Assembly: GCA_033032865.1 (NCBI GenBank)
Contig: JAWHQI010000166.1
Span: 3,286,001-3,350,000, forward strand
Source: Dactylorhiza incarnata
Taxonomy: Eukaryota > Streptophyta > Magnoliopsida > Asparagales > Orchidaceae
Direction: 5' to 3'
Length of the DNA: 64,000 nt
The notes beneath the pieces were generated by a model. The model did no database searches, was not told the DNA's origin, and saw only the letters and a list, made by a program, of their open reading frames with translations. The first letter of the stretch is position 1, and every line of letters starts with the position of its first letter. A program made the translations under genes and the position numbers. Below are positions 3,361 to 32,025 of the stretch, piece after piece.

Positions 3361-4012
3361 CCGTAGGGATAAGTTGTTACAAGAATAATCTAATAACACA
3401 CTCACCCACACCCCGTGGTTGCGGGAGCCTAGTCTGTTTGGTGATGCGAGCAGTAAGCTCAGTGTTTGAAAGAGCGGATTGAAAGTCAGGTGAGCTTACA
3501 ACTCAGTAGAGTTTGTTGGTACGGACGGGTTGGTCCGGGGAGCCGGTGGCTCGGAAGGTTATTAATGACGGGCAGGTTAGCCCGGGGAGCTTATGGCTCG
3601 GAGATAGATTGTAGAACATGTTGCATGTGCATCGAAGGTGGTGGGTCTTCTGTATTGGATGGACGTTCACACCGACGTCAATACGTTGACTAGGCAAGTG
3701 TAGTATATACACTTAGCCTAGAAAGTCTGGCGGTCCAGTAAGCAAGAGTACGCAGACGCTCCACGGTTTGTGTTGAGGCGTACGATAGGTCTAGGTTAGG
3801 TAGTTTGAATACCAACCTGGAGGTGGGCGAGGCCCAACCCACCGCTTCCATTTGCCACTACGGGAGTATCCTGGGAGTCTAGCTAGCTCCAAAAAGGGGA
3901 AACTAAAGGTCTATGCGCATAGAGTCGTGGTGTGTGAGTTGCACTTGTATGATCATAGCATAACAACATACCTTGCATGTCATAGCATGAACATTGCATT
4001 TCAACCCCTACC

Positions 4013-5050: not shown

Positions 5051-6134
5051 AAAATTAAACTTTTATTTATGCACATTTATTTTATATTAATAAATATAAA
5101 ATTATTTCATGCTAGATGATAATTTTATATTTATTAAAATGGTTGTAATTTTAATTTTGCACTCTTTATTTTATTTTGGTGTGTATTTAACCATACGGAT
5201 GGATGAGATTTCATCTCCATCATGGATGGTTAAGATGTTGTTGTAACTCCTATTTAAGGAGGTCTTTGTGAAGGAATGAAGCATTGAAGACAAAAAAAAA
5301 CCTAATTTCCCCTCTTGGAAATTTCGGCCAAGGAAGAGCTCTCCATTGCCCCCCCCCCCCCCTCCTCTTAGTGTGACTCCAAGGCCGCCTCCCTCCATCC
5401 TCTTCGGTGCGACTCCGACGAGACTTCCGCGGTGTGACTCCAAGGAAGAAAGGGGCTTCTCCATTCGGTGCGTCGCCAGTGGAACCATGGAGAGAGAGAT
5501 TCTCCCACATCTATCTTGAGTGCATGCATATTCTTGGTTGGGTAACCCCTCCCCTTTCTAGTGATTCTTCTACGTTATTTTGTGGAGGTTTTGTCGAATC
5601 GTTTTATCTGAGATCTTAAATCTTTTCGCTTGCAAAATCTGAAATAATAGTGTTGTTATTGAATCTCTTGTTGTTCGGATCGGGTAGATCCGGTGCGGGA
5701 GCGAAACTCGGCCTAGCCTTGATTTGCTCTCCAAGATTGGCGCACTTGGCGCTAACAAGGGAGTTAATCTCAACTAACGCTTTATTGCCGCTTGAATGTT
5801 CACCGCCGCTCCAAGAAAATTGCCGCTGCGTTTGAAATGAATTGATTGATGGAATAGATGCTTGTGTAGGTGCGGTGAGTTGTGTGCTTGTTGGAGAGGT
5901 AGGTCTTAAGGACGTTGTATCGAGTCCGGCTTACGGTGAGTTGTGTGCTTGTTGAAGAGGTAGGTCCTAAGGACGTTGTATCGAGTCCCGCATATTTTTA
6001 TCTATCGGATTTGGAGAGCCAACCGACCCCTTTTCGTTCGATTTTGGTCGGAGCCCTCCCATGTTATTTTAATTTATGTGATGAATGTCATTCCGTTAGC
6101 GTAACGTACACGTCGTCACGGTACCCCTACATCA
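5050..6134 (+). repeat. 5' LTR of Chromo-1 (start uncertain)
   Basis: The right boundary is fixed by a CA at 6133-6134 followed three bases later by a PBS complementary to initiator-Met tRNA. A TATA-like TATTTAA at 5251-5257 is a plausible promoter. Without a 3' LTR to compare, the start is a guess in the AT-rich stretch near 5050. A 61-bp tandem duplication lies inside at 5873-5990. Confidence 0.55.
5873..5990 (+). repeat. 61-bp tandem duplication in the Chromo-1 LTR
   Basis: The unit starting 'cggtgagttgtgtgcttg' at 5873 is repeated from 5934, both ending in 'gacgttgtatcgagtcc'. The two copies differ by only a few bases, so the duplication is recent relative to the element's decay. Confidence 0.85.
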
Positions 6135-16452: not shown

Positions 16453-16810
16453 ATGGCATCCAACCGCCCACCTGTCACGAGGAACGGCCGGGAGCAAAGC
16501 GCGGCCAACTTCTCAGGGTGCTCTTTCCCTGTGGGAAAGGTGTCTAAGGAAGACCTCTTGGCCTTCAGGAGTTCCTGCCTCCCTGAGGGGTGGTCATGCA
16601 GACGCCCGTCGGCGGGCGAGACCATCAACTCCTTTTATGATGACTGGCTTGCATTCCCCCTCCCTCACTTTGAGGTCGGGCTACGACTGCCTTTGTGGCC
16701 CGAGGTGAAGGAGTTCCTAGACTACTTTGGCGTAGTCCCTGCTCAAGTCAACACAAATGCGATTTTGATGTTGACGGCCTACGCGTGCTACATGCGGGAG
16801 GAGAGGGTGG
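16453..16810 (+). pseudogene. Antisense unit A2, 5' part of exon 1 (split by Athila)
   Basis: The reading begins MASNRPPVTRNGREQSA and is open up to the Athila insertion at 16811; it continues in frame at 30583. The middle part (FPLPHFEVGLRLPLWPEVK and FLDYFGVVPAQVNTNAILML) resembles the plant 'putative gypsy type transposon' domain (Pfam Transposase_28 type), in which a hydrophobic 'FPL..F...VL..Y...AQL.PN' pattern is typical. Members occur within plant LTR elements and as free copies; function is unknown. Its place in Tat-1, antisense to gag and with its own TATA box, matches the extra antisense ORFs known in Tat-type elements. Confidence 0.55.
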
Positions 16811-16977
16811 TGATGAATAGTAATTCTACGTGTTTTTCTGTATAGTTTTTAGTGTATTTTTGCTTAGAATTATAAATAATCTATGTAATTAAATAAATAA
16901 ATTGTTTCTTTTTGTTATTTTAAACTTTTAACTAAGTTTTATTTTAATTTAATAAACTTTCTGTCTTTTTGTTAAGA

Positions 16978-17442
16978 CACGCCCTTGGACACGCCCGTGT
17001 CCAAGGGCGTGTTCACTAATCCCTAACATTTTCTTCTCTCTGTTCTTTTTCCAACTCAAACATCAAGTCACGCCCTCGGTCACGCCCGTGACCGAGGCCG
17101 TGTACTTGGTCACGCCCGTGTTGGATATCCATCCCAGATTCCAGCCACTTGAAGCATTTCATCCAAAAAGTCAAAGTCACGGCCGTGACATTTCAGACAC
17201 GCCCGTGACCCTCAATTCCTTCCAGAAGAACAAAGGACACGCCAGGTGTCACGCCCAGTTCAAGCTCCAGCCAGCCGACCTAGGTCACGCCCGTGACCTA
17301 GGCCGTGTACGATGGTCACGCCCGTGTACTTCCAAAGTCGCCGGTCAAGCCTTCCAGACGCCTGCCTGGATCCAGCTGTTCTGGCTATTCGCACCCCAAG
17401 CCGTGTCACGCCCTCAGACACGCCCGTGTCCGAGGGCGTGTA
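16978..17442. repeat. CACGCCCGTG palindrome cluster in Athila 5' LTR
   Basis: The word CACGCCCGTG, or near copies, occurs about nine times, often extended into longer palindromes such as 'ggacacgcccgtgtcc' and 'gtcacgcccgtgac'. It ends just before the TATA box, so it occupies the U3 enhancer position. The same cluster is at 28155-28619 in the 3' LTR. Confidence 0.85.
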
Positions 17443-17458
17443 ATTCCAAAATTTTTCC

Positions 17459-17466
17459 TATAAATA
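17459..17466 (+). promoter_or_regulatory. TATA box of Athila 5' LTR
   Basis: TATAAATA directly follows the palindrome cluster and is identical in the 3' LTR at 28637-28644. It defines U3 versus R, so about 650 bp of U3 and nearly 2 kb of R-U5. Confidence 0.7.
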
Positions 17467-18165
17467 GCCAGATTCAGCTGAGTGTGGGGGTTCAGAATTT
17501 TGAGACCTCTTCTTAAGCTTGTGGACCAATTTTTGCTGTTTTCATGTTTTAGCTCTCTTTTTGCATTTTCTCTCTCTTGTTTTGTAACCTTATTTTTGAT
17601 GGAAATAAAATAGGTTAGCTTGTTTTGTAATTCTCTTCTCTTGTTTGTTAAAGTGTGTGTGTGTGTTCTCTTTTTTTTCTTCTTTCTTTCTCTTTTTTTT
17701 TAGTTTTTGTAATTTTTGTTATTATAATTAGTTGTCCATTTTAATTTGGGTGTGTGTGTGTATGAGGCTAATTTTCATGTTTTTAGCTTTTTTTTTGTAA
17801 TTTTTAGATGGTTTCATAATTTGTGTGTGTGAGTGTATGAGTTTAGGTTAATTTTTCTCTTTTTTGTATTTTTATTTTTCTTTTTAGTTTTTTAGTGCTT
17901 TTGTAGTTTTTATTAAAGTATGTGTGTGTGTGTGCTAGTATAGATTTTGTTTTATTTTAACTTAGATTTCATTTTTAGTAAGGGTGTGTGAGTGTAGGAG
18001 AATAGATTTTATTTTCTTATTAACTTAGTTTCATTTATGTTGTGTGTGTGAGTGTATGAGTTAATTTTTGTTTTCTTTAACTTAGTTTTCAATTAAAGTA
18101 AGTGTGTGTGTGTGTGGGAGGATAAATTTTGCGCCTTTTTTGTAATTCAATAGCTTTTATTTCTG

Positions 18166-18360
18166 TCACGCATTTATTTCCCGCCTATCCATTTGGATAG
18201 GACTTGTCACGCATTTATTTCCCGCCTATCCATTCGGATAGGACTTGTCACGCATTTATTTCCCGCCTATCCGCTTGGATAGGACTTGTCACGCATTTAT
18301 TTCCCGCCTATCCATTTGGATAGGACTCGCTCACGCATTTATTTCCCCTCTACCTATTTG
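18166..18360 (+). repeat. Five 41-bp tandem repeats in Athila 5' LTR
   Basis: Units of 'cacgcatttatttcccgcct' followed by 'atccatttggataggactt' repeat head to tail. The half 'tatccatttggata' is itself an inverted repeat, so each unit can form a small stem. The last unit is diverged. The equivalent array in the 3' LTR is at 29346-29545. Confidence 0.9.
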
Positions 18361-19265
18361 GGTAGGGATCGCACTTCTTTAATTTATGCAATTTACCGCT
18401 TTCATTTTAATTCCGTAGAGTGCGTGAGTTTTCAATTAGTGCGTCTTTTGTTTTTAATATAATTGCTTTTTGCTAATTCCGCTAACCGCTCAATCACTTA
18501 AAATCGCCGTAGTTATCATTATCGCTTTATAAAACTCTAAAAAAAAAATCTGAGCAAAACTACTTTCTAAATTAACGTTTTCGTGCTTTCTCGCTTTTTA
18601 TCGCAATTATCGTTAAACGCACGCCAACCTTAATTTTTGTCATTAGTTTTTCTATAAAATTATAAAAATCAATTCAAAACTCTTTTCGATAAAATAATAG
18701 CGCGCTCCTAAGAAGTAGAAATAATCGATACGACCTTGGAAAAATACGACTTTGATATTTCAAAAGAAATATCCTATACTACTATCGATAAGGTCCACTT
18801 GCCTTTATTGATTTTAGTCTGGATAATTATATAAACCCAAAAGCTTTCTCTCCAAAGCAATTTTTAAAACTCTCTTTTAAACACTTAAAAAATTGTTGCA
18901 ACAACTCTTTGGTTGTTGGAACTAGCTCAAGGCAAAATAAGTTTTAAAACGATCTCTTAAAGAATTGTTGCAACAACTCACAAAATTGTTGCAACAACAT
19001 ATTCAAAAAGCTTTCAACTTTCATTTCAAACATAAGCCTTTCAAATCCCCTACTTAGCTTTTGGCGACGCGGCCAAAGAGTAATCCTCGATATTTCGAAA
19101 GAGGAAAAGGCCATTACTTCTATCTTTAGATAGGATAACGGGTAATTCCTCGAAGTAGAATTACTCGCGGGACTCTTCGAAAACTCCGCCGAATTCTAAT
19201 AAAAGAAGAAAGAAAGGCTTTACTTTAATTTAGCTTTTAAATCTAAAAAAACCGTATCAAGTTTT

Positions 19266-19340
19266 TGGCGCCGTTGCCGGGGACCGAACCCGGGTCACCC
19301 GCGTGACAGGCGGGAATACTCACCACTATACTAAAACATC
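19266..19340 (-). tRNA. Full-length antisense copy of tRNA-Asp(GUC) within the 5' LTR (retro-derived)
   Basis: The minus strand of this 75-nt stretch reads as a whole nuclear tRNA-Asp including anticodon GTC, the internal A box TAGTATAGTGG and the terminal CCA. CCA is added to eukaryotic tRNAs after transcription, so this came from a mature tRNA by reverse transcription and not from a gene copy. Its first 18 plus-strand bases are the Athila PBS TGGCGCCGTTGCCGGGGA. The next base, opposite tRNA position 58 (normally m1A), is C where the canonical complement is T. Two or three more differences from the plant tRNA-Asp I remember lie at the tRNA 5' end. It is unlikely to be an active tRNA gene. 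Confidence 0.85.
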
Positions 19341-19409
19341 CGCCTAAGGTTAAAGTTTAAAGAAAGATAGAGCTTTTCTAAAAAAGATAAAAAAACTGTA
19401 TCAAGTTTT

Positions 19410-19427
19410 TGGCGCCGTTGTCGGGGA
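19410..19427 (+). other. Functional primer binding site of Athila, tRNA-Asp
   Basis: TGGCGCCGTTGTCGGGGA lies six bases after the LTR end at 19403. It differs by one base from the tRNA-Asp complement. It is the second PBS in a row; the first (19266-19283) lies inside the LTR as part of the tRNA copy. Confidence 0.9.
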
Positions 19428-19974
19428 CTTATGTCGTTATTTTGAAATAGGAAACGCTATTAATTTTATCTTATATTTCACCTCTCTATCAATTATATAT
19501 TTTACTTTCATCTTAAAAACAACAAAAAATTTTAATTAAGAAAGAAAAAAAACCTATCTAAGAAAAAGGAAAATCCAAAATTTTCAAAAAAAAAATTTAT
19601 AAAATATAAAGATATATCTCCTTTATTTTTACCACCTCTTATAAACTCATATTTGCAGAATTTAAAAACTTTTGCAATTATAAAACTTTTGCTTATATAT
19701 TTACAAACATACATCTATATGTTCATATAAAACCAAACAAAATAAAACCTTAAAAATCATCCAAAACAAAATATATATATATAGCAATATTTTCTACTTA
19801 CGAAAAGAAAATAAAAAATAATAATAATATATATATTTTCCCCCTCTTTCTTTCTTTCCTTGTTTTTCTTCCTTGTAAAAATATTTCCAAAACAAAAACA
19901 TCAAAAAAAAATCTATAAAAAGAAAAAAAAAAGAAACTATTTCTTCCAAATTTAAAAAAAAAAGAGAATAGTTT
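19428..19974 (+). other. Athila untranslated leader
   Basis: A very AT-rich leader between PBS and gag, with long A and T runs and no supported ORF. Small frames on the minus strand here are composition artefacts. Confidence 0.7.
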
Positions 19975-21480
19975 ATGACCCGAGGAGAATCTTCGGATAA
20001 TCCAATTTTACCTTTTGATCCGGAAATCGAGCGCACACTTCTCGAGAGCCGCCGATCTCGTAATCAAAATCTACAAATAGATCCCGAAGAATCCGTCGGG
20101 GATATACATATAGGCGTGATGGGCGATCCTAATCTAAATGCGTCCCCACAGCGGACCATGGCCTATTATGCTAGGCCAAATTTAGAGGATACAGGATCGA
20201 GCGTCACCCGCCCCGCGGTAGCTAATAATAATTTCGAAATCAAATCCAGTATAATTCAAATGGTACAACAGTCGATTCAGTTCAACTGTTTGCCAGATGA
20301 GGACCCAAACCAACACCTTAATAATTTTTTAGAAATTTGCGACACCTTCAAGATTAATGGCGTCAGCGATGACGCCATTCGCTTGCGCTTATTTCCCTTT
20401 TCCCTGCGGACAAAGGCGAAATCGTGGTTGACTTCTCTTCCGAGAGGGTCCATAACCACGTGGGCCGAATTGACGGAGAATTTTCTAACTAAATATTTTC
20501 CTCCGTCAAAAACCGCTAAATTACGCACCGATATCGCATCCTTCATTCAATTCGATTCCGAGTCTCTCTACGAGACTTGGGAACGTTTTAAAGAATATTT
20601 GCGTAGGTGTCCTCATCACGCGCTACCAACTTGGCTTCAGGTACAAACGTTCTATAACGGCTTGAATTTCTCAACGAGACAGATGATCGACGCAGCCGTC
20701 GGGGGAACGTTAAACAACAAAACCCCAGAGGCCGCTCAAGCTCTGATCGAAGAAATGGCCATGAACGCGAACCAATAGAACGTGCCAAGGTCGCGTCCTC
20801 CTAAACCGGCTGGTATTTTCGAAGTGGATGCCACTACTCACTTAGCCTCGCAGGTAGAGCGGCTAAGTAAGTAAGTGGCGGAGATGACTGCTTCCTCCTC
20901 CACTCCCGCTTGGGCTAATAATCCTAATAATAATAATAATAATTTTAATAATCCTAATAATAATAATAATAATAATTTTAATAATCTTAATAATAATAAT
21001 AATCTTAATTATAATATTAATAATAACAATAATTTAAGCGAGGAATCGGTGGATTACGTGGGCAATCAAGTGCGGGCGCCCTTCAACCCATATAGTAATA
21101 ACTATAACCCGGGTTGGAGGAGCCACCCGAACTTCTCCTGGAGTAACCCTAATAATGCGCAACGCCCTCCACCTGCGATCCCGCAAGGATTTCCGCATGG
21201 ATATCCCCAAGGATTTCAGCAGGGTTTTGCGCCTCCTCCTCCAAAACCTTCTCCGCTCGAGGAGATTTTTGCAAAATACATGGCTTCCAACGACACAAAT
21301 ATCCGGAATATAACCGGATCGCTAAAAATTTTAGAAATGCAGGTTGGACATGTTGCAAAAATGGTCTCCGAGCGGCCACTTGGAGCACTACCTGGGAACT
21401 CGGAGCAGAACCCGCGTGAAAATGCCCACGCCATTACCTTACGCAGCGGCAAGGAGGTCGACTCCCCATTGCGGGTTGAG
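19975..21480 (+). pseudogene. Athila gag, two stops
   Basis: Starts at 19975 (MTRGESSDNPILPFDPEIER). The retrotransposon gag core follows: FLEICDTFKINGVSDDAIRL near 20330, FPFSLRTKAKSWLTSLPRGS near 20395, FLTKYFPP near 20480, LYETWERFKEYLRRCPHH near 20570. TAG at 20776-20778 and TAA at 20872-20874 interrupt the frame. Beyond them comes an asparagine tract of more than 30 Asn coded by AAT triplets (20919-21035), then the Athila-specific tail ITGSLKILEMQVGHVAKMV near 21310 and NAHAITLRSGKEV near 21420. There is no classical zinc knuckle, as is usual for Athila. Confidence 0.85.
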
Positions 21481-24300
21481 CATCAGGTAACTGTTTCACC
21501 TCCGACCCCTGCACCCTCGTCTTTTATTTTAGTAGATACGGAAAAAATATTAGCGTCGGGCGTCTCGGGCCCGCAAATTCTGTACCCCGCAAAATTTAAT
21601 AAAGAGAAGGAGGACGAACATAACCAAAAGTTATTACAAATATTTAAACAAATTCAAATTAACGTTCCCTTATGCGAGGCACTCTCTCAGATGCCGAAAT
21701 ATGCGAAATACCTTAAGGAGCTCCTTTCTAATAAAAAGAAGCTCGAAGGTATTTCGCGTGTTTCATTAAATGCGGAATGCTCGGCGGTCCTACTTAATAA
21801 ATTGCCGCCAAAACTAAACGATCCGGGAAGGTTTTCCATCCCGTGCCTATTCGGCAATTTATTAATAAAGTACGCCCTAGCGGACCTGGGAGCGAGCATC
21901 AATTTGATGCCCTTCTCCCTCTTTAAAAAACTAGATTTGGGAGTTCCCGCCCCAACAAAAATGAGCATCCAACTCGCGGATCGCTCGATAAAATATCCTA
22001 TCGGGGTAGTGGAGGACGTTCTGGTCAAGGTTGACAAGTTTATCTTTCCGGTAGACTTCGTCATCCTCGACATCGAGGAGGACGCCGAGGTACCAATTAT
22101 CCTCGATCGCCCTTTCCTCGCGACCTCCCGAGCATTAATTGATGTGAGTAACGGACGCCTCCTCCTTCGGGTAGGGGACGACGAAGTTACCCTTCATATT
22201 AATCCTTCGATGCGAAACTCTTTATCGAACGATGATTCCTGCTTTCACTTAGAATCCGCGTTCGAGGATGAGTGTTCTTCGCTTGCAGAATTACTCGCTT
22301 TACCATTAGACGATCCGGATCTGGCAAGCCTCGCCCCTTTGGACGAATTACCGCCAGATTCGTCTTTCGGGTCTTTTAATTCTAAAAGTTTAAAAATAAC
22401 AACTTCTTACGAAGAACCCCCGGTCTTGGAGCTTAAGCCACTCCCCGACCATTTAAAATACGCTTTTCTCGCCGCGGACTTAAAACTCCCGGTTATTATT
22501 TCGTCTTCTTTAACCGATTCGGAAACCTCCGAATTAGTTAAAGTTTTGTCCACGCATCGCCATGCAATTGCATGGCAGATTTCTGATATTAGGGGGATAA
22601 ATCCCTCTTTTTGCACTCACAAAATCTTCTTAGAAGATAATTCCTGCAAAACCATCCAGCCTCAGCGACGACTAAACCCAAATATGCGGGATGTCGTTAA
22701 GGCTGAAGTAATAAAACTCCTGGATGCGGGGATTATCTACCCTATATCCGACAGCACGTGGGTTAGTCCCATTCATGTCGTGCCTAAAAAGGGCGGTCTA
22801 ACGGTAGTGGCAAATCAACATAACGAATTAATTCCAACCCGTACTGTTACGGGTTGGAGGGTGTGCATCGATTACCAAAAATTAAATGATGCCACCCGCA
22901 AAGACCACTTTCCGTTACCGTTTATCGATCAAATTTTGGAGCGACTATCGGGTCATCCTTATTATTGTTTTCTCGACGGTCTATCGGGATTTTTACAAAT
23001 TCCAATCTCCCCCGAAGATCAGGAGAAAACAACCTTTACGTGCCCCTTCGGTACCTTCGCGTACCGAAGGATGCCATTCGGCCTCTGCAACGCGCTAGCT
23101 ACATTTCAACGATGTATGCTAGCGATATTTGGAGAGCTCGTAGAGGATATTATGGAAGTCTTTATGGATGACTTCTCGGTTTTTGGAAGCTCCTTCCAAA
23201 ACTGCCTTCAAAATTTAGATCGAGTCCTCCAACGATGCGAAGACACGAACCTGGTTTTAAACTGGGAAAAGTGTAATTTCATGGTTCGAGAAGGCTTAGT
23301 TCTCGGCCACAAAATTTCTGAAAGAGGGATGAAGGTCGACAAGGCCAAGGTCGAAATAATTGAAAAACTCCCCGCGCCCTCAAATATAAAATCAATTCGT
23401 AGTTTTCTTGGCCACGCGGGTTTCTATAGGCGGTTTATTCAAAAATTTTCCAAAATAACAAAACCGCTAACCCACCTCCTGGAGAAAGAATCTCCATTCA
23501 TTTTTGATAGCGCGTGCGTAGAGGCATTCAATGCCATAAAAAATAAACTTATCCATTCTCTCATTCTGGTGGCGCCTGATTGGACCCTTCCGTTTGAGAT
23601 TATGTGCGACGCGAGCGATATAGCGGTAGGGGCCGTATTAGGCCAACGCGTAAATAAATATTTTTATCCTATCTACTACGCGTCCCGCACGCTCACGGCC
23701 ACACAGGCTAATTACACGACAACGGAAAAGGAACTCCTTGTCGTCGTCTTCGCCATAGATAAGTTTAGGCCCTACGTCACGCTTTCTAAAATTATAATAT
23801 TTACCGACCACTCCGCACTTAAATATTTATTAGAAAAAAAGGACGCTAAGCCCCGCCTTCTTCGATGGATCCTCCTATTACAAGAATTCGATTTAGAGAT
23901 CCGGGATAAGAAGGAGGCCGAAAATTTAGCGGCCGACCACCTTTCTCGTTTAGAACACCCAATCGCGGAAGCGCTCTTCGAACCGAAAATCGATGATCGA
24001 TTTCCCGAGGAGCGTCTTTTAGTTTTAAATAATTTAAAAACTTCTCCCTCGCCTTGGTTCGCAGAATACGCCAACTATTTAGTTGCGCGGGTGCTCCCGA
24101 AAGACTTTTCAAAACAGCAAAAGAAGAAATTCCTTTCTGTTTTGAAAAATTACTTTTGGGAGGACCCTTTCTTATTTCGCGTCTGCGTGGACCAAATCGT
24201 GTGGAGATGCGTTTCGAGCGAGGAGGGTGCGCAAATTTTGCGGCACTGCCACGAAGGGCTGGCCGGGGGCATTATCAAGCCAACCGGACCACGCAGAAGG
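21481..24300 (+). pseudogene. Athila protease, reverse transcriptase, RNase H
   Basis: In the same open frame as the gag tail. The aspartic protease has ADLGASINLMP near 21880 (D-L-G in place of D-T-G, common in Athila) and VPIILDRPFLATS near 22090. RT has CIDYQKLNDATRKDHFPLP near 22864, MPFGLCNALATFQRCM near 23070 and the catalytic FMDD near 23161, the lineage-typical form of YxDD. RNase H shows MCDASDIAVGAVLGQ near 23600, TTEKELLVVVFAIDKFRPY near 23720, TDHSALKYLL near 23800 and ADHLSRLE near 23933. The frame is lost near 24270 within the integrase zinc-binding region (HCHEGLAGG), probably by a one-base shift. Confidence 0.88.
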
Positions 24301-25339
24301 CGCTGGAGGCGGGCTTTTATTGGACCGCTCTCTTCAAAGACGCTCACACTTTTGTGAGCGTATGCGATAGCTGTCAACGGTCGGGTAACATCTCTCGTCG
24401 CGACGAGATGCCCCAAAATTTTTATTTAGAATGCGAGATTTTCGATTTATGGGGCATAGATTTCATAGGCCCCCTACCTCCTTCATTTACAAATCGCTAC
24501 ATTTTAGTGGCGGTCGACTACGTATCTAGGTGGGCGGAAGCGCAAGCTCTCCCCACCAACGATGCGAGAGTCGTCGTCAAATTTCTTAAAAAATTATTTT
24601 CTCGCTTCGGTACGCCCCGTGCGATAGTTAGTGATAGGGGTACGCACTTTTGCAACGCCCAGTTTGCAAAAACATTAACCAAATATGGCGTTACGCATAA
24701 GCTCGCCACCGCCTATCACCCCCAAACGAGCGGCCAAGTGGAGGTAGTAAATCGAGAAATTAAGCGAATATTAGAAAAAAAACCGTTTCCACTAATAGGA
24801 AGGATTGGGCAATTAAATTAGACGACGCGTTGTGGGCATATCGTACGGCGTACAAGACCGCAATCGGTTGTACGCCTTATCGATTAGTCTACGGCAAGGC
24901 GTGCCATTTGCCCGTAGAATTAGAGCACCGCGCTTTTTGGGCGTTAAAGCTTTTAAATCTCGATCATAATTTAACCGCCAAAAACCGGAAATTCCAATTA
25001 AACGAACTCGATGAATGGCGTGCGAACGCCTACGAGAGTAATAAATTTTATAAGGAACGCTCTAAATTTTACCACGACCGAAAATTTAAATTTCCAAAAT
25101 CATTTGCGCCGGGCGATCTCGTCCTCCTATATAATTCACGTCTTCGTCTTTTTCCGGGGAAACTAAAATCCCGTTGGTCCGGCCCCTTTCAAGTGAAAGA
25201 GGTTTGGCCATACGGGACCGTCCTTATAACCCACCCGGAAAAAGGCGACTTAAAAGTTAACGGTCACCGACTAAAACTCTACCACGCGGGGGATCAACTG
25301 GGAGGGAAGCTAAATTCCATACCCCTCCCCCACCTCTAA
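24270..25339 (+). pseudogene. Athila integrase, two frameshifts
   Basis: After the shift near 24270 the reading continues [19 protein letters not shown] and [18 protein letters not shown] (end of the HHCC domain). The catalytic core has [10 protein letters not shown] near 24455, [13 protein letters not shown] near 24630 and [20 protein letters not shown] near 24716 (D, D, E). A second shift falls in a run of A at 24775-24782; the new frame 24830-25339 carries [20 protein letters not shown] and a C-terminal SGPFQVKEV module. The two breaks, one in a homopolymer, could be decay or sequencing error. Confidence 0.85.
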
Positions 25340-27989: not shown

Positions 27990-30582
27990 TGATGAATAGT
28001 AATTATACGTGTTTTTCTGTATAGTTTTTAGTGTATTTTTGCTTAGAATTATAAATAATCTATGTAATTAAATAAATAAATTGTTTGTTTTTGTTATTTT
28101 AAACTTTTAACTAAGTTTTATTTTAATTTAATAAACTTTCTGTCTTTTGTTAAGACACGCCCTTGGACACGCCCGTGTCCAAGGGCGTGTTCACTAATCC
28201 CTAACATTTTCTTCTCTCTGTTCTTTTTCCAACTCAAACATCAAGTCACGCCCTCGGTCACGCCCGTGACCGAGGCCGTGTACTTGGTCACGCCCGTGTT
28301 GGATATCCGTCCCAGATTCCAGCCACTTGAAGCATTTCATCCAAAAAGTCAAAGTCACGGCCGTGACATTTCAGACACGCCCGTGACCCTCAATTCCTTC
28401 CAGAAGAACAAAGGACACGCCAGGTGTCATGACCAGTTCAAGCTCCAGCCAGCCGACCTAGGTCACGCCCGTGACCTAGGCCGTGTACGATGGTCACGCC
28501 CGTGTACTTCCAAAGTCGCCGGTCAAGCCTTCCAGACGCCTGCCTGGATCCAGCTGTTCTGGCTATTCGCACCCCAAGCCGTGTCACGCCCTCAGACACG
28601 CCCGTGTCCGAGGGCGTGTAATTCCAAAATTTTTCCTATAAATAGCCAGATTCAGCTGAGTGTGGGGGTTCAGAATTTTGAGACCTCTTCTTAAGATTGT
28701 GGACCAATTTTTGCTGTTTTCATGTTTTAGCTCTCTTTTTGCATTTTTCTCTCTCTTGTTTTGTAACCTTATTTTTGATGGAAATAAAATAGGTTAGCTT
28801 GTTTTGTAATTCTCTTCTCTTGTTTGTTAAAGTGTGTGTGTGTGTGTTCTCTTTTTTTCTTCTTTCTTTCTCTTTTTTTTTAGTTTTTGTAATTTTTGTT
28901 ATTATAATTAGTTGTCCATTTTAATTTGGGTGTGTGTGTGTGTATGAGGCTAATTTTCATGTTTTTAGCTTTTTTTTGTAATTTTTAGATGGTTTCATAA
29001 TTTGTGTGTGTGAGTGTATGAGTTTAGGTTAATTTTTCTCTTTTTTGTATTTTTATTTTTCTTTTTAGTTTTTTAGTGCTTTTGTAGTTTTTATTAAAGT
29101 AAGTATGTGTGTGTGCTAGTATAGATTTTGTTTTATTTTAACTTAGATTTCATTTTTAGTAAGGGTGTGTGAGTGTAGGATAATAGATTTTATTTTCTTA
29201 TTAACATAGTTTCATTTATGTTGTGTGTGTGAGTGTATGAGTTAATTTTTGTTTTCTTTAACTTAGTTTTCAATTAAAGTAAGTGTGTGTGTGTGTAGGA
29301 GGATAAATTTTGTGCCTTTTTTGTAATTCAATAGCTTTTATTTCTGTCACGCATTTATTTCCTGCCTATCCATTTGGATAGGACTTGTCACGCATTTATT
29401 TCCCGCCTATCCATTTGGATAGTACTTGTCACGCATTTATTTCCCGCCTATCCGCTTGGATAGGACTTGTCACGCATTTATTTACCGCTTATCCATTTGG
29501 ATAGGACTCGCTCACGCATTTATTTCCCCTCTACCTATTTGGGTAGGGATCGCACTTCTTTAATTTATGTAATTTACCGCTTTCATTTTAATTCCGTAGA
29601 GTGCGTGAGTTTTCAATTAGTGCGTCTTTTGTTTTTAATATAATTGCTTTTTGCTAATTCCGCTAACCGCTCAATCACTTAAAATCGCCGTAGTTATCAT
29701 TATCGCTTTATAAAACTCTAAAAAAAATCTAAGCAAAACTACTTTCTAAATTAACGTTTTCGTGTTTTCTCGCTTTTTATCGCAATTATCGTTAAACGCA
29801 CGCCAACCTTAATTTTTGTCATTAGTTTTTCTATAAAATTATAAAAATCAATTCAAAACTCTTTTCGATAAAATAATAGCGCGCTCCTAAGAAGTAGAAA
29901 TAATCGATACGACCTTGGAAAAATACGACCTTGATATTTCAAAAGAAATATCCTATACTACTATCGATAAGGTCCACTTGCCTTTATTGATTTTAGTCCG
30001 GATAATTATATAAACTCAAAAGCTTTCTCTCCAAAGCAATTTTTAAAACTCTCTTTTAAACACTTAAAAAATTGTTGCAACAACTCTTTGGTTGTTGGAA
30101 CTAGCTCAAGGCAAAAGAAGTTTTAAAACGATCTCTTAAAGAATTGTTGCAACAACTCGCAAAATTGTTGCAACAACATATTCAAAAAGCTTTCAACTTT
30201 CATTTCAAACATAAGCCTTTCAAATCCCCTACTTAGCTTTTGGCGACGCGGCCAAAGAGTAATCCTCGATATTTCGAAAGAGGAAAAGGCCGTTAATTCT
30301 ATCTTTAGATAGGATAACGGGTAATTCCTCGAAGTAGAATTACTCGCGGGACTCTTCGAAAACTCCGCCGAATTCTAATAAAAGAAGAAAGAAAGGCTTT
30401 ACTTTAATTTAGCTTTTAAATCTAAAAAAACCGTATCAAGTTTTTGGCGCCGTTGCCGGGGACCGAACCCGGGTCACCCGCGTGACAGGCGGGAATACTC
30501 ACCAATATACTAAAACGTCCGCCTAAGGTTAAAGTTTAAAGAAAGAAAGAGCTTTTCTAAAAAAGATAAAAAAACCGTATCA
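27990..30582 (+). repeat. 3' LTR of Athila
   Basis: Full-length match to 16811-19403 with the same sub-repeats: palindromes 28155-28619, TATA 28637-28644, 41-bp repeats 29346-29545 and the tRNA-Asp copy 30445-30519. It ends CCGTATCA at 30582. That the 3' LTR also holds the tRNA copy and the extra LTR-like end shows that these are now part of the inherited LTR. Confidence 0.95.
30445..30519 (-). tRNA. Antisense tRNA-Asp copy within the 3' LTR (retro-derived)
   Basis: The same 75-nt unit as at 19266-19340, differing at two positions (A for C in 'accaata', and G for A near the tRNA 5' end). The second difference makes this copy slightly closer to the canonical tRNA. The C opposite position 58 is shared by both copies. 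CCA is included. Not expected to be a working tRNA gene. Confidence 0.85.
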
Positions 30583-31142
30583 GATGGTATTTGACCTGAG
30601 CGTGTTCTGTAAGATCTTTATCTTCCGAGCAACCACCGATGAGATTTGCTTCTTGACCGGCACACACGTGAAGGTGTGTGAGACCTCCAACAAGGTCCAC
30701 CACTGGAACGATTCATTTGTGTTTGTTAAGGGCGACCTGGGTGGCATCCCCTTCTCCCCCACACAGAGACCTGAGAAGGTATGCAAAGCCCCCTTGCTAC
30801 GTGGGGAGGCTGCTGAGTTGTACCGCTTCCTTGCGGGTGCGAGCTTTGAGGTCGAGCACCTCCGGAGGAATATTAATTGGCTCACTTATGTGAAGCCGGG
30901 GACAGGTACTGGACCTCACTAACTCGCCCCTTTTTTGGTTCACTTCTACCTATGGCTGCTTACTCCATCCTAACTTGTGCAGGTGAGCGGTCCCTTCCTC
31001 GATACCTCCCCTTTGCGGGGGGAGTTCTTCCCTCGCCCGTGGGTGCGTCGAGGAGGCTGCAGCTGCCTCTGCCTCGGCTCCGGAGGTGTCCGGGTCGAGG
31101 CAAAGGAAGGACAAGGAACAGGCGGTAGAGGAGGGTGCGCCC

Positions 31143-31174
<32 letters not shown>

Positions 31175-32025
31175 GGGACCGACGATGCGAAGGGGAAAGG
31201 TCATCTGCCGAAGGGACTCCAGGGCACAAACTGGGGAGAGGGGGGAACCGAGTGACCCCAACGCGTTAGCCAACCACCCCAACTTTGAGATGTGGGGGGG
31301 GGGGGGGGGAGGCCACGGACCCTCTTGGCGACCCTATCATCCATTGGGCTGAAACGGTGAACCGGGTCTCCCTCACCTCCCAGCGGCCTTCGTGGGTTGA
31401 GGGGGATATTACTGATGGCGCGGCGTATAGCTTTACCTATGGCATCTACGGTCGGCAGGACGCTGCATCCTACAAGGGGATGTCTATGCGCGACCTTGCG
31501 TACGCGAGTTCTCAGGCCCAGCTTCGCGCGGCCGAGCTCTCCCATATGGCCGCCCGCCGAGGTCTCAGTCTCTCGAACAGGCGGATGCAGGCAGATGCAT
31601 TGAAGTTGGACGCGGAAGAGAAGGCTATCAACCTCACGGCTCGCTTGGCCACCGCTGAGAAACTCTTGGAGGAATCATCCGGAGGCTTGGTTCGTGCCTA
31701 TTTTGGTGATTTTTCCTTCTCTTCTCAATTCCTTGTTATTCATAGGTTTTACTTCATTTGCTTTGTTGACCTGCAGGGTCCCGGTGCCGCCGACTCGCTC
31801 AGGAGATGATGCGAGGAGTCGGACCGGGAGGTGCATGACCTGAGGGCCCAGCTTGCTGAAGCCCATAGGCAGCTAAAGGAGAGGGGAGGAGAAGGAGGTG
31901 TACCTTCAAGGGTAGCGATGCCGGCCCCATCCCGACCTACCAAAGTTGGGCGCGCTCGGGGGAAGATCATGGCGTCAACGGCCCGGGCCATGGTGAGTCG
32001 TATTCATGACGTGGATGCCCTCTGA
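30583..32025 (+). pseudogene. Antisense unit A2, downstream part (Transposase_28-like, coiled coil)
   Basis: Continues the A2 frame across the Athila insertion: VFDLSVFCKIFIFRATTDEI (30587), then HHWNDSFVFVKGDLGGIPF near 30700 and NINWLTYVKPGTG at 30870, fitting the second half of the Transposase_28-type domain. A probable intron begins with a GT near 30906 and ends 'aacttgtgcag' at 30982. Later exons carry a helix-rich segment (SSQAQLRAAELSHMAARR near 31510, EEKAINLTARLATAEKLLEE near 31617). A further intron ends 'gacctgcag' near 31776, followed by EVHDLRAQLAEAHRQLKERG. Runs of about 25 C (31147-31171) and 17 G (31294-31310) break the frame and may have slipped. Exon joins are inferred. Confidence 0.5.

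Follow-up and report, generated by a model that had tools for sequence, protein, structure and literature searches.

In HIV-1, the strong stop is generally attributed to m1A58 in the primer tRNA, and unmodified primer is copied whole, with over-extension in TRMT6/TRMT61A-mutant cells that comes at a cost to the virus, according to the available text of a review (PMC13191261). As far as the available accounts describe it, the over-extension on m1A58-deficient tRNA-Lys3 resembles the plant copies reported below in that synthesis likewise continues beyond position 58 as far as the 5′ end of the unmodified primer, but it was observed in vitro or in TRMT6/TRMT61A-mutant human cells; the plant copies, by contrast, are fixed in the genome, are numerous, derive from two primers and carry errors at position 58. 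Joined tRNA sequences have also been described: Colicelli and Goff (1986) reported a tRNA between the two LTRs in circular MMLV DNA, and Konstantinova (2006) tRNA insertions in HIV, both as recounted in the available part of PMC12220202, which itself adds HIV insertions (Gurgo and Franchini 2025). In these cases, as in the plant copies, a tRNA that had been reverse-transcribed was attached to LTR or proviral DNA, and deletions accompany the join; unlike the plant copies, they comprise few isolates, as far as described, and the inserted tRNA is tRNA-Gly, tRNA-Asp or tRNA-Glu. None of these three is known as the standard primer of the viruses concerned. Asymmetric HIV LTRs are also on record, and the available portion of that report mentions no tRNA insertion (PMC9278108).

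Two further systems are close to the locus described here. The TRIM Helenus carries tRNA sequence within both LTRs, keeps a tRNA-derived pol III promoter and has a PBS without complementarity to the LTR tRNA, according to the passages available (PMC10886601). Ty1 and Ty3 strictly inherit their PBS, as stated in the accessible text of PMC7472051. Both, like the plant elements, are tRNA-primed LTR retrotransposons, but in the plant elements the primer tRNA sequence itself is copied and at times inherited. An earlier paper related to this point is that of Lauermann and Boeke (1994). Textbooks present the strong stop at m1A58 as a standard step; its failure is documented in the available parts of these sources by experiments in vitro, by mutant human cells and by individual isolates. 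Among the best matches of longer literature lists, as judged from titles, the starts of abstracts and passages, we found no report of genome-wide primer-tRNA read-through copies or of m1A58 fossils.

The window, a stretch of 64,000 nt from Dactylorhiza incarnata, contains an LTR retrotransposon with a tRNA-Asp-derived unit in both LTRs (Table 1). The two LTRs differ at 33 of 2,589 compared sites (K2P 0.0129). Pfam places the domains in the Ty3/gypsy-type order gag, RT, RNase H and integrase (PF03732, PF00078, PF17917/PF17919 and PF00665) and lists neither a chromodomain nor an additional RNase H in the four open stretches scanned, which cover part of the internal region. The additional RNase H (aRH) marks Tat, according to the available part of a paper that also gives plant PBS frequencies and Athila features (PMC6317226). 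The 5-bp target duplication, a feature of Athila, is present around the window element, with four of five bases equal, and around a relative, L005 (CTCAT/CTCAT). The element's PBS is complementary to tRNA-Asp, which we take to be typical of Athila. As in Helenus, tRNA sequence lies within both LTRs; unlike in Helenus, it is antisense, contains the PBS and represents the element's own primer. Identity with a Helenus TRIM was rejected because the tRNA lies antisense over PBS1 and gag and pol domains are present. Each LTR also holds tandem 41-bp repeats of about four units (window 18123-18368 and 29304-29549), and long C runs and G runs flank the element (window 31140-31310).

Table 1. Features of the retrotransposon and its tRNA-Asp-derived units (positions in the window)
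Feature	Position	Strand	Evidence or remark
5′ LTR, extended form, 2593 nt	16811..19403	+	begins TGATGAATA, ends CTGTATCA; equal-length LTR pair, flanks
Original LTR body, subfamily A	16811..19259	+	old LTR end CCGTATCA; U5 end close to L005; followed by spacer AGTTTT and PBS1
PBS1, 18 nt, complementary to tRNA-Asp 3′ end including CCA	19266..19283	+	
Reverse-transcribed tRNA-Asp(GUC), tRNA-derived part, A76 to about nt 8	19266..19333	-	
tRNA position 58 (m1A58 site)	19284..19284	-	tRNA sense G (C on + strand), not A
Putative transplanted subfamily-B LTR end (apparent tRNA nt 1-7 and next 63 bp), the new LTR end	19333..19403	+	
PBS2 (tRNA-Asp, one mismatch)	19410..19427	+	after extended LTR and AGTTTT
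Retrotrans_gag, reverse transcriptase, RNase H, integrase core; several open stretches	19972..24818	+	Pfam, ORFs
3′ LTR, extended form, 2593 nt	27990..30582	+	ends CCGTATCA
tRNA-Asp-derived part, 3′ LTR	30445..30512	-	ARAGORN, Rfam, relatives' LTR ends
Putative subfamily-B LTR end, 3′ LTR	30512..30582	+	identity to relatives' LTR ends
Target-site duplication, 5′ copy GGTGG	16806..16810	.	
Target-site duplication, 3′ copy GATGG	30583..30587	.	

ARAGORN places a minus-strand tRNA-Asp(gtc) precisely at 19266-19340 and 30445-30519, and the covariance search proposed in the initial annotation matches Rfam RF00005 in both LTRs at 39.6 and 40.7 bits, above the gathering score of 29 (E 7.2e-05 and 3.7e-05). 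The initial annotation had described a whole tRNA-Asp(GUC) with terminal CCA that begins exactly with the 18-nt PBS, is followed by a second PBS at 19410 and recurs in the 3′ LTR. Its place, strand and CCA are correct, the complement TGG being encoded and the tRNA lying antisense in both LTRs; the first 18 nt of the unit are PBS1, the 3′ LTR copy is called at the place given, and PBS2 is present, reading GTTGtCGGGGA with one mismatch. The completeness of the tRNA did not stand. The unit runs, in order, from a subfamily-A LTR end through AGTTTT, PBS1 and the tRNA copy (nt 76 to about 8) to a subfamily-B LTR end, AGTTTT and PBS2. Here subfamily A denotes the U5 end before PBS1, at which L005 is nearly identical, differing at the very LTR end, while subfamily B is the LTR end beginning AAAACGTCCGCCTAAGG. 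From 30512 onward the window 3′ LTR is identical to L007, L010 and L025 over 60 of 60 nt, followed by a 4-nt gap relative to these three and then the LTR end; L030 and L019 differ at one of the 60 nt. As the initial annotation had asked of the host genome, LTRs both with and without the unit exist: none of L007, L010, L019, L025 and L030 has a tRNA at the corresponding place.

In this orientation the nuclear tRNA ends CTACAACGAC, and the window reads CTAAAACGTC in the 3′ LTR and CTAAAACATC in the 5′ LTR, with ACTATACTAAAACRTCCGCC at the junction of the unit; against the tRNA, the apparent nt 1-7 show two mismatches in the 3′ LTR and three in the 5′ LTR. Because AAAACGTC of the 3′ LTR is identical to subfamily B, the simplest reading puts the end of the tRNA-derived part at about nt 8, and the apparent nt 1-7 are best read, on sequence comparison, as LTR rather than tRNA. 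Given one later base change, the template switch could have taken place slightly further on, a few bases past nt 8. A complete tRNA copy in the window was rejected, since the relatives' LTR ends supply the apparent nt 1-7; the copy thus stops short of tRNA nt 1. By the same comparison, the extra LTR-like end appears to come from the second Athila subfamily and not to be copied from the element's own end. The LTR did gain a tRNA copy, an additional end and a new PBS, as the initial annotation had it, but the simple fixing of the strong-stop product that it envisaged does not fit, since an end from a second subfamily requires a template switch.

The window unit is not unique but is one of a genome-wide set of primer-tRNA read-through products. 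In the host assembly (3.27 Gb, 3,184 contigs), a 35-nt tRNA-Asp pattern, TTGGCGCCGTTGCCGGGGANCGAACCCGGGTCACC, occurs at 70 places and its reversed control at 0, which excludes chance. The 70 sites yielded 67 distinct sequences (three identical pairs), although shared flanks and assembly duplicates mean that the sites are not fully independent of one another. Immediately upstream of TGG, 59 of these 67 read exactly ATCAAGTTTT over ten bases, and the remaining eight deviate from this motif by a single changed base or one additional T. The copies adjoin many different LTR ends. Sites with the LTR end, spacer and PBS as at PBS1 number 14,664 in the genome, so the 70 exact copies amount to about 0.5 percent of them, a ratio between two patterns of different stringency. 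In public viral contigs, a 30-nt read-through pattern gave 0 matches.

For comparison with nuclear tRNA-Asp genes, a single exact pattern was used that finds 14 places without C after the discriminator base and so misses any gene that has a C there. Ten of the 14 were fetched, and one of the four others lies within L065. Among the ten are five genuine nuclear genes and five decayed read-through copies, one of which, L117, has T58. All five genuine genes have A58, lack CCA and have A/T-rich trailers; one has a single base change near its 5′ end. Insertion or recombination of such a gene into an LTR, its likeness to the primer being coincidental, would account for a tRNA-Asp-like sequence that passes tRNA gene finders, but the unit encodes CCA, begins exactly at the PBS beside the LTR end, in the window as in the 67 distinct copies (59 exact), and differs from the nuclear genes at position 58. 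We therefore give this explanation almost no credence. A nuclear gene with its genomic flanks, which the initial annotation had set against its own reading along with a shortened tRNA or a missing CCA match, is accordingly not borne out; the CCA match is present, and the tRNA is indeed less than full length.

Position 58 stands out among the Asp copies. A 56-nt pattern allowing up to 3 mismatches occurs at 109 places, of which the best 100 by mismatches were considered; four rows without CCA, the nuclear genes L109, L110, L115 and L118, were omitted, leaving 96, one of them a TTGACG row from a palindromic site. Within these best 100 of 109, position 58 is altered in 24 of 96 copies (cDNA A in 18, C in 5, G in 1) and canonical in 72, whereas every other position is altered in at most 7 of 96, and all other positions pooled show 70 changes in 5,280 cells, mostly C to T or G to A. 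The comparison of position 58 with the others gives a Fisher p of 3e-22, a value that assumes independence among rows that are not fully independent. The T-to-A change that makes up 18 of the 24 is found a single time among all other T positions of the 56-nt pattern, again among the best 100 of 109. The stricter 70-site set shows base 58 changed in 18 of 70, and after rough clustering it is changed in 16 of 60, versus 21 of 1,905 cells at nt 1-41, the 60 clusters being approximate in that L096, L082 and L005 were lumped despite their different LTRs. Copies with A at 58 have unrelated junctions. The window carries C on the plus strand at base 58 in both LTRs, a minority error rather than the commonest A.

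A 5′-m1A-U-3′ context leads to dATP misincorporation, according to the available part of PMC4787781, and the tRNA-Asp T-loop reads A58-U59, with A as the main cDNA error. The changes at position 58 look like fossils of read-through past m1A58, from which we infer that the tRNA-Asp primer was m1A58-modified; because base 58 is canonical in 72 of the 96 copies, this reading must assume that T was inserted correctly there or that the tRNA was unmodified. Variant tRNA-Asp isodecoders or ordinary later mutation could instead have produced the changes, given that other positions also vary and that the nuclear genes were sampled by one exact pattern blind to a C after the discriminator base. A58 in all five genuine nuclear genes, the excess of 24 of 96 over at most 7 of 96 elsewhere, mainly as T to A (18 of 24; best 100 of 109), and the unrelated junctions of the A-at-58 copies make such an origin very unlikely. 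Collectively, the genome-wide copies, the signature at position 58, the A58 of the nuclear genes and the one-sided relative L005 uphold the initial annotation's central proposal of primer-tRNA read-through during plus-strand strong-stop synthesis. In the window and in L087 the wrong base may have arisen by transient misalignment (dislocation), being equal to the first internal base after the PBS, which, like the error, is C in both (in the window, after PBS2). Dislocation fails for L005, for L049 and for the L020 and L026 families, in which the error is unlike the first internal base.

A second primer shows the same phenomenon with a different spectrum. An initiator-Met pattern, which we take to be the counterpart of the Asp pattern, occurs at 25 places and its reversed control at 0, and the sequences before and after differ among all 25 copies fetched. 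At base 58, 13 copies have T, 10 have C, one has A and one has G, so that changed copies are mostly C for initiator-Met and mostly A for Asp. As described in the available text of PMC4787781, m1A followed by A forms a cluster of its own in which C is low when read as template (little G in cDNA), and the initiator-Met spectrum (C10, A1, G1) is compatible with that cluster. Across L122-L146, whether base 58 is canonical or changed largely tracks the type of LTR end: by a grouping made by eye after the data had been seen, the end is TTACAA in 10 and TTATAA in one of the 13 canonical copies, versus neither in any of the 12 changed copies. The division between TTACAA-type and other LTR ends presumably corresponds to gypsy-like and copia-like elements. 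This split suggests that element groups are not alike in their enzyme or in the tRNA they package.

The Asp copies stop at many positions. On the numbering of the 75-nt tRNA, 22 of the 67 distinct copies reach nt 1, and the other 45 are spread over 23 other end positions; seven stop at nt 12, and others anywhere from nt 3 to nt 40. What follows the tRNA also varies. L006, L004, L027 and L003 continue into the Athila internal region in sense orientation (at internal base 3944, at 5761, near 3696 and at base 14, respectively). Five of 67 (L026, L046, L048, L049 and L090) return within 50 nt to an earlier part of their own LTR in direct order, and 13 of 67, including L008, L028, L085, L091 and L100, continue into their own LTR inverted (match of at least 85 nt at 84 percent identity, starting within 150 nt), as if synthesis had turned back onto the plus strand; in these comparisons with the LTR, 27 of the 67 sequences had under 200 bases upstream. 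In a separate set of 13 junctions, six have an acceptor that aligns cleanly with the window's own sequence and 1-4 bases common to tRNA and acceptor, and in the other seven the acceptor is not cleanly aligned from its first base. Two side observations concern the architecture of individual sites. In L048 (1410-1500), two more LTR-end/PBS units stand in short tandem just before the tRNA copy, which suggests repeated switching at the PBS. L036, L037, L038 and L066 (C555, near 8370500 and 8376200) hold head-to-head read-through LTR ends in a natural palindrome, laid out as LTR-tRNA followed by inverted tRNA and inverted LTR.

In standard reverse transcription, the 5′ LTR is formed from plus-strand strong-stop DNA, and the 3′ LTR from the beginning of the minus strand itself. 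A slip during plus-strand strong-stop synthesis is therefore expected at first beside the 5′ LTR only, and L005 is this predicted first-cycle form. Its 5′ LTR starts TGATGAATA after CTCAT, and its 5′ side carries the tRNA copy, an LTR end and PBS2; its 3′ LTR shows 99.0 percent identity over 731 nt, lacks any tRNA and closes with CTATCA directly before CTCAT. The starts of its 5′ LTR (L120) and 3′ LTR (L147) agree at 98.7 percent over 393 columns, and the target duplication CTCAT lies on both sides of the element. BLAST of the window LTR against L120 gave no match, and L121, the presumed place of the 3′ LTR of L015, gave no match to LTR sequence. The window element would be the next state after an L005-like provirus. 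A single cycle should not bring the unit into both LTRs; RNA from such a provirus, if primed at PBS2, would yield a U5 that contains the whole unit and so place it in both. Since a target duplication flanks the element, the new second LTR end is the end that integrase used, and the B-derived end works. Presence in both LTRs and a working end set the window element apart from L005, the only other element of which both LTRs were compared. They also agree with the initial annotation that the change predates the last transposition and that the enlarged element could still transpose.

The two-subfamily mosaic, whose junction lies in short homology, the change at A58, the target duplication, L005 as a one-sided relative and the recurrence across the genome are very probably explained by read-through of the primer tRNA followed by a template switch and a later PBS2-primed cycle. 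During plus-strand strong-stop synthesis in an Athila-type Ty3/gypsy element of subfamily A, the reverse transcriptase would have run past m1A58 of the tRNA-Asp primer, which was then still attached to the minus strand, misincorporating a base opposite m1A58 and copying the tRNA to about nt 8. At a short homology between the tRNA (CTACAACG) and the LTR (GAAAACG), it would then have moved to the minus strand of a subfamily-B element packaged together with the first, copying the U5 end of that element and a fresh 18-nt PBS, at which second-strand transfer could be completed. The resulting provirus would have borne the unit only between the 5′ LTR and gag, as in L005. Priming at PBS2 in a subsequent cycle would have extended U5 by PBS1, the tRNA copy and the B end and so carried all three into both LTRs, with integrase using the new end. 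We infer the order of these steps, the co-packaging and the use of PBS2.

The added end could also have been acquired by end joining of tRNA-tailed strong-stop DNA to another LTR end, in the manner of two-LTR circles. The 1-4 bases of homology at the six judged junctions and the frequency of inverted LTR products (13 of 67) are in keeping with joining. Even so, a correctly placed LTR end, AGTTTT and PBS are restored in the window, L005, L015, L087 and L092, as expected with continued synthesis on a proper U5-PBS template, and target duplications flank the window element and L005; we regard end joining as unlikely. Continued synthesis after a template switch thus remains our preferred account of the window unit. 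It is very improbable that the extended LTR is an adaptation in which two PBSs or an antisense tRNA bring an advantage through alternative priming or pol III activity. The unit has survived at least one transposition, as its presence in both LTRs and the flanking target duplication attest, but a genome search in which 40 of 1,488 candidates were scored matched the tRNA and tail only in the element's own two LTRs, and base 58, in the B-box region of the antisense tRNA, is changed from A to G.

This plant genome offers many natural failures of the strong stop, junctions included, from which the rate of stop failure, the next destination of the enzyme and the base placed opposite m1A can be measured directly; in the window, such a failure has turned into a working, transmitted LTR end. 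On balance, we favor the view that LTR-retrotransposon copies constitute a fossil record of primer-tRNA modification, each copy preserving the behavior of a single reverse transcriptase at m1A58 in one event in the germ line and the spectra differing by primer and element group, and that some slips become heritable LTR ends with tandem PBSs, making read-through with template switching a natural route for LTR evolution and the joining of subfamilies. Plant tRNA annotation may count read-through copies as genes, as ARAGORN does in the window. A separate case of repetition is found on contig C1657, where a decayed tRNA-Asp read-through copy adjoining AAAACTTG (L111-L114) occurs at seven places in two groups, with a spacing of about 14 kb, in what looks like tandem amplification of one slip.
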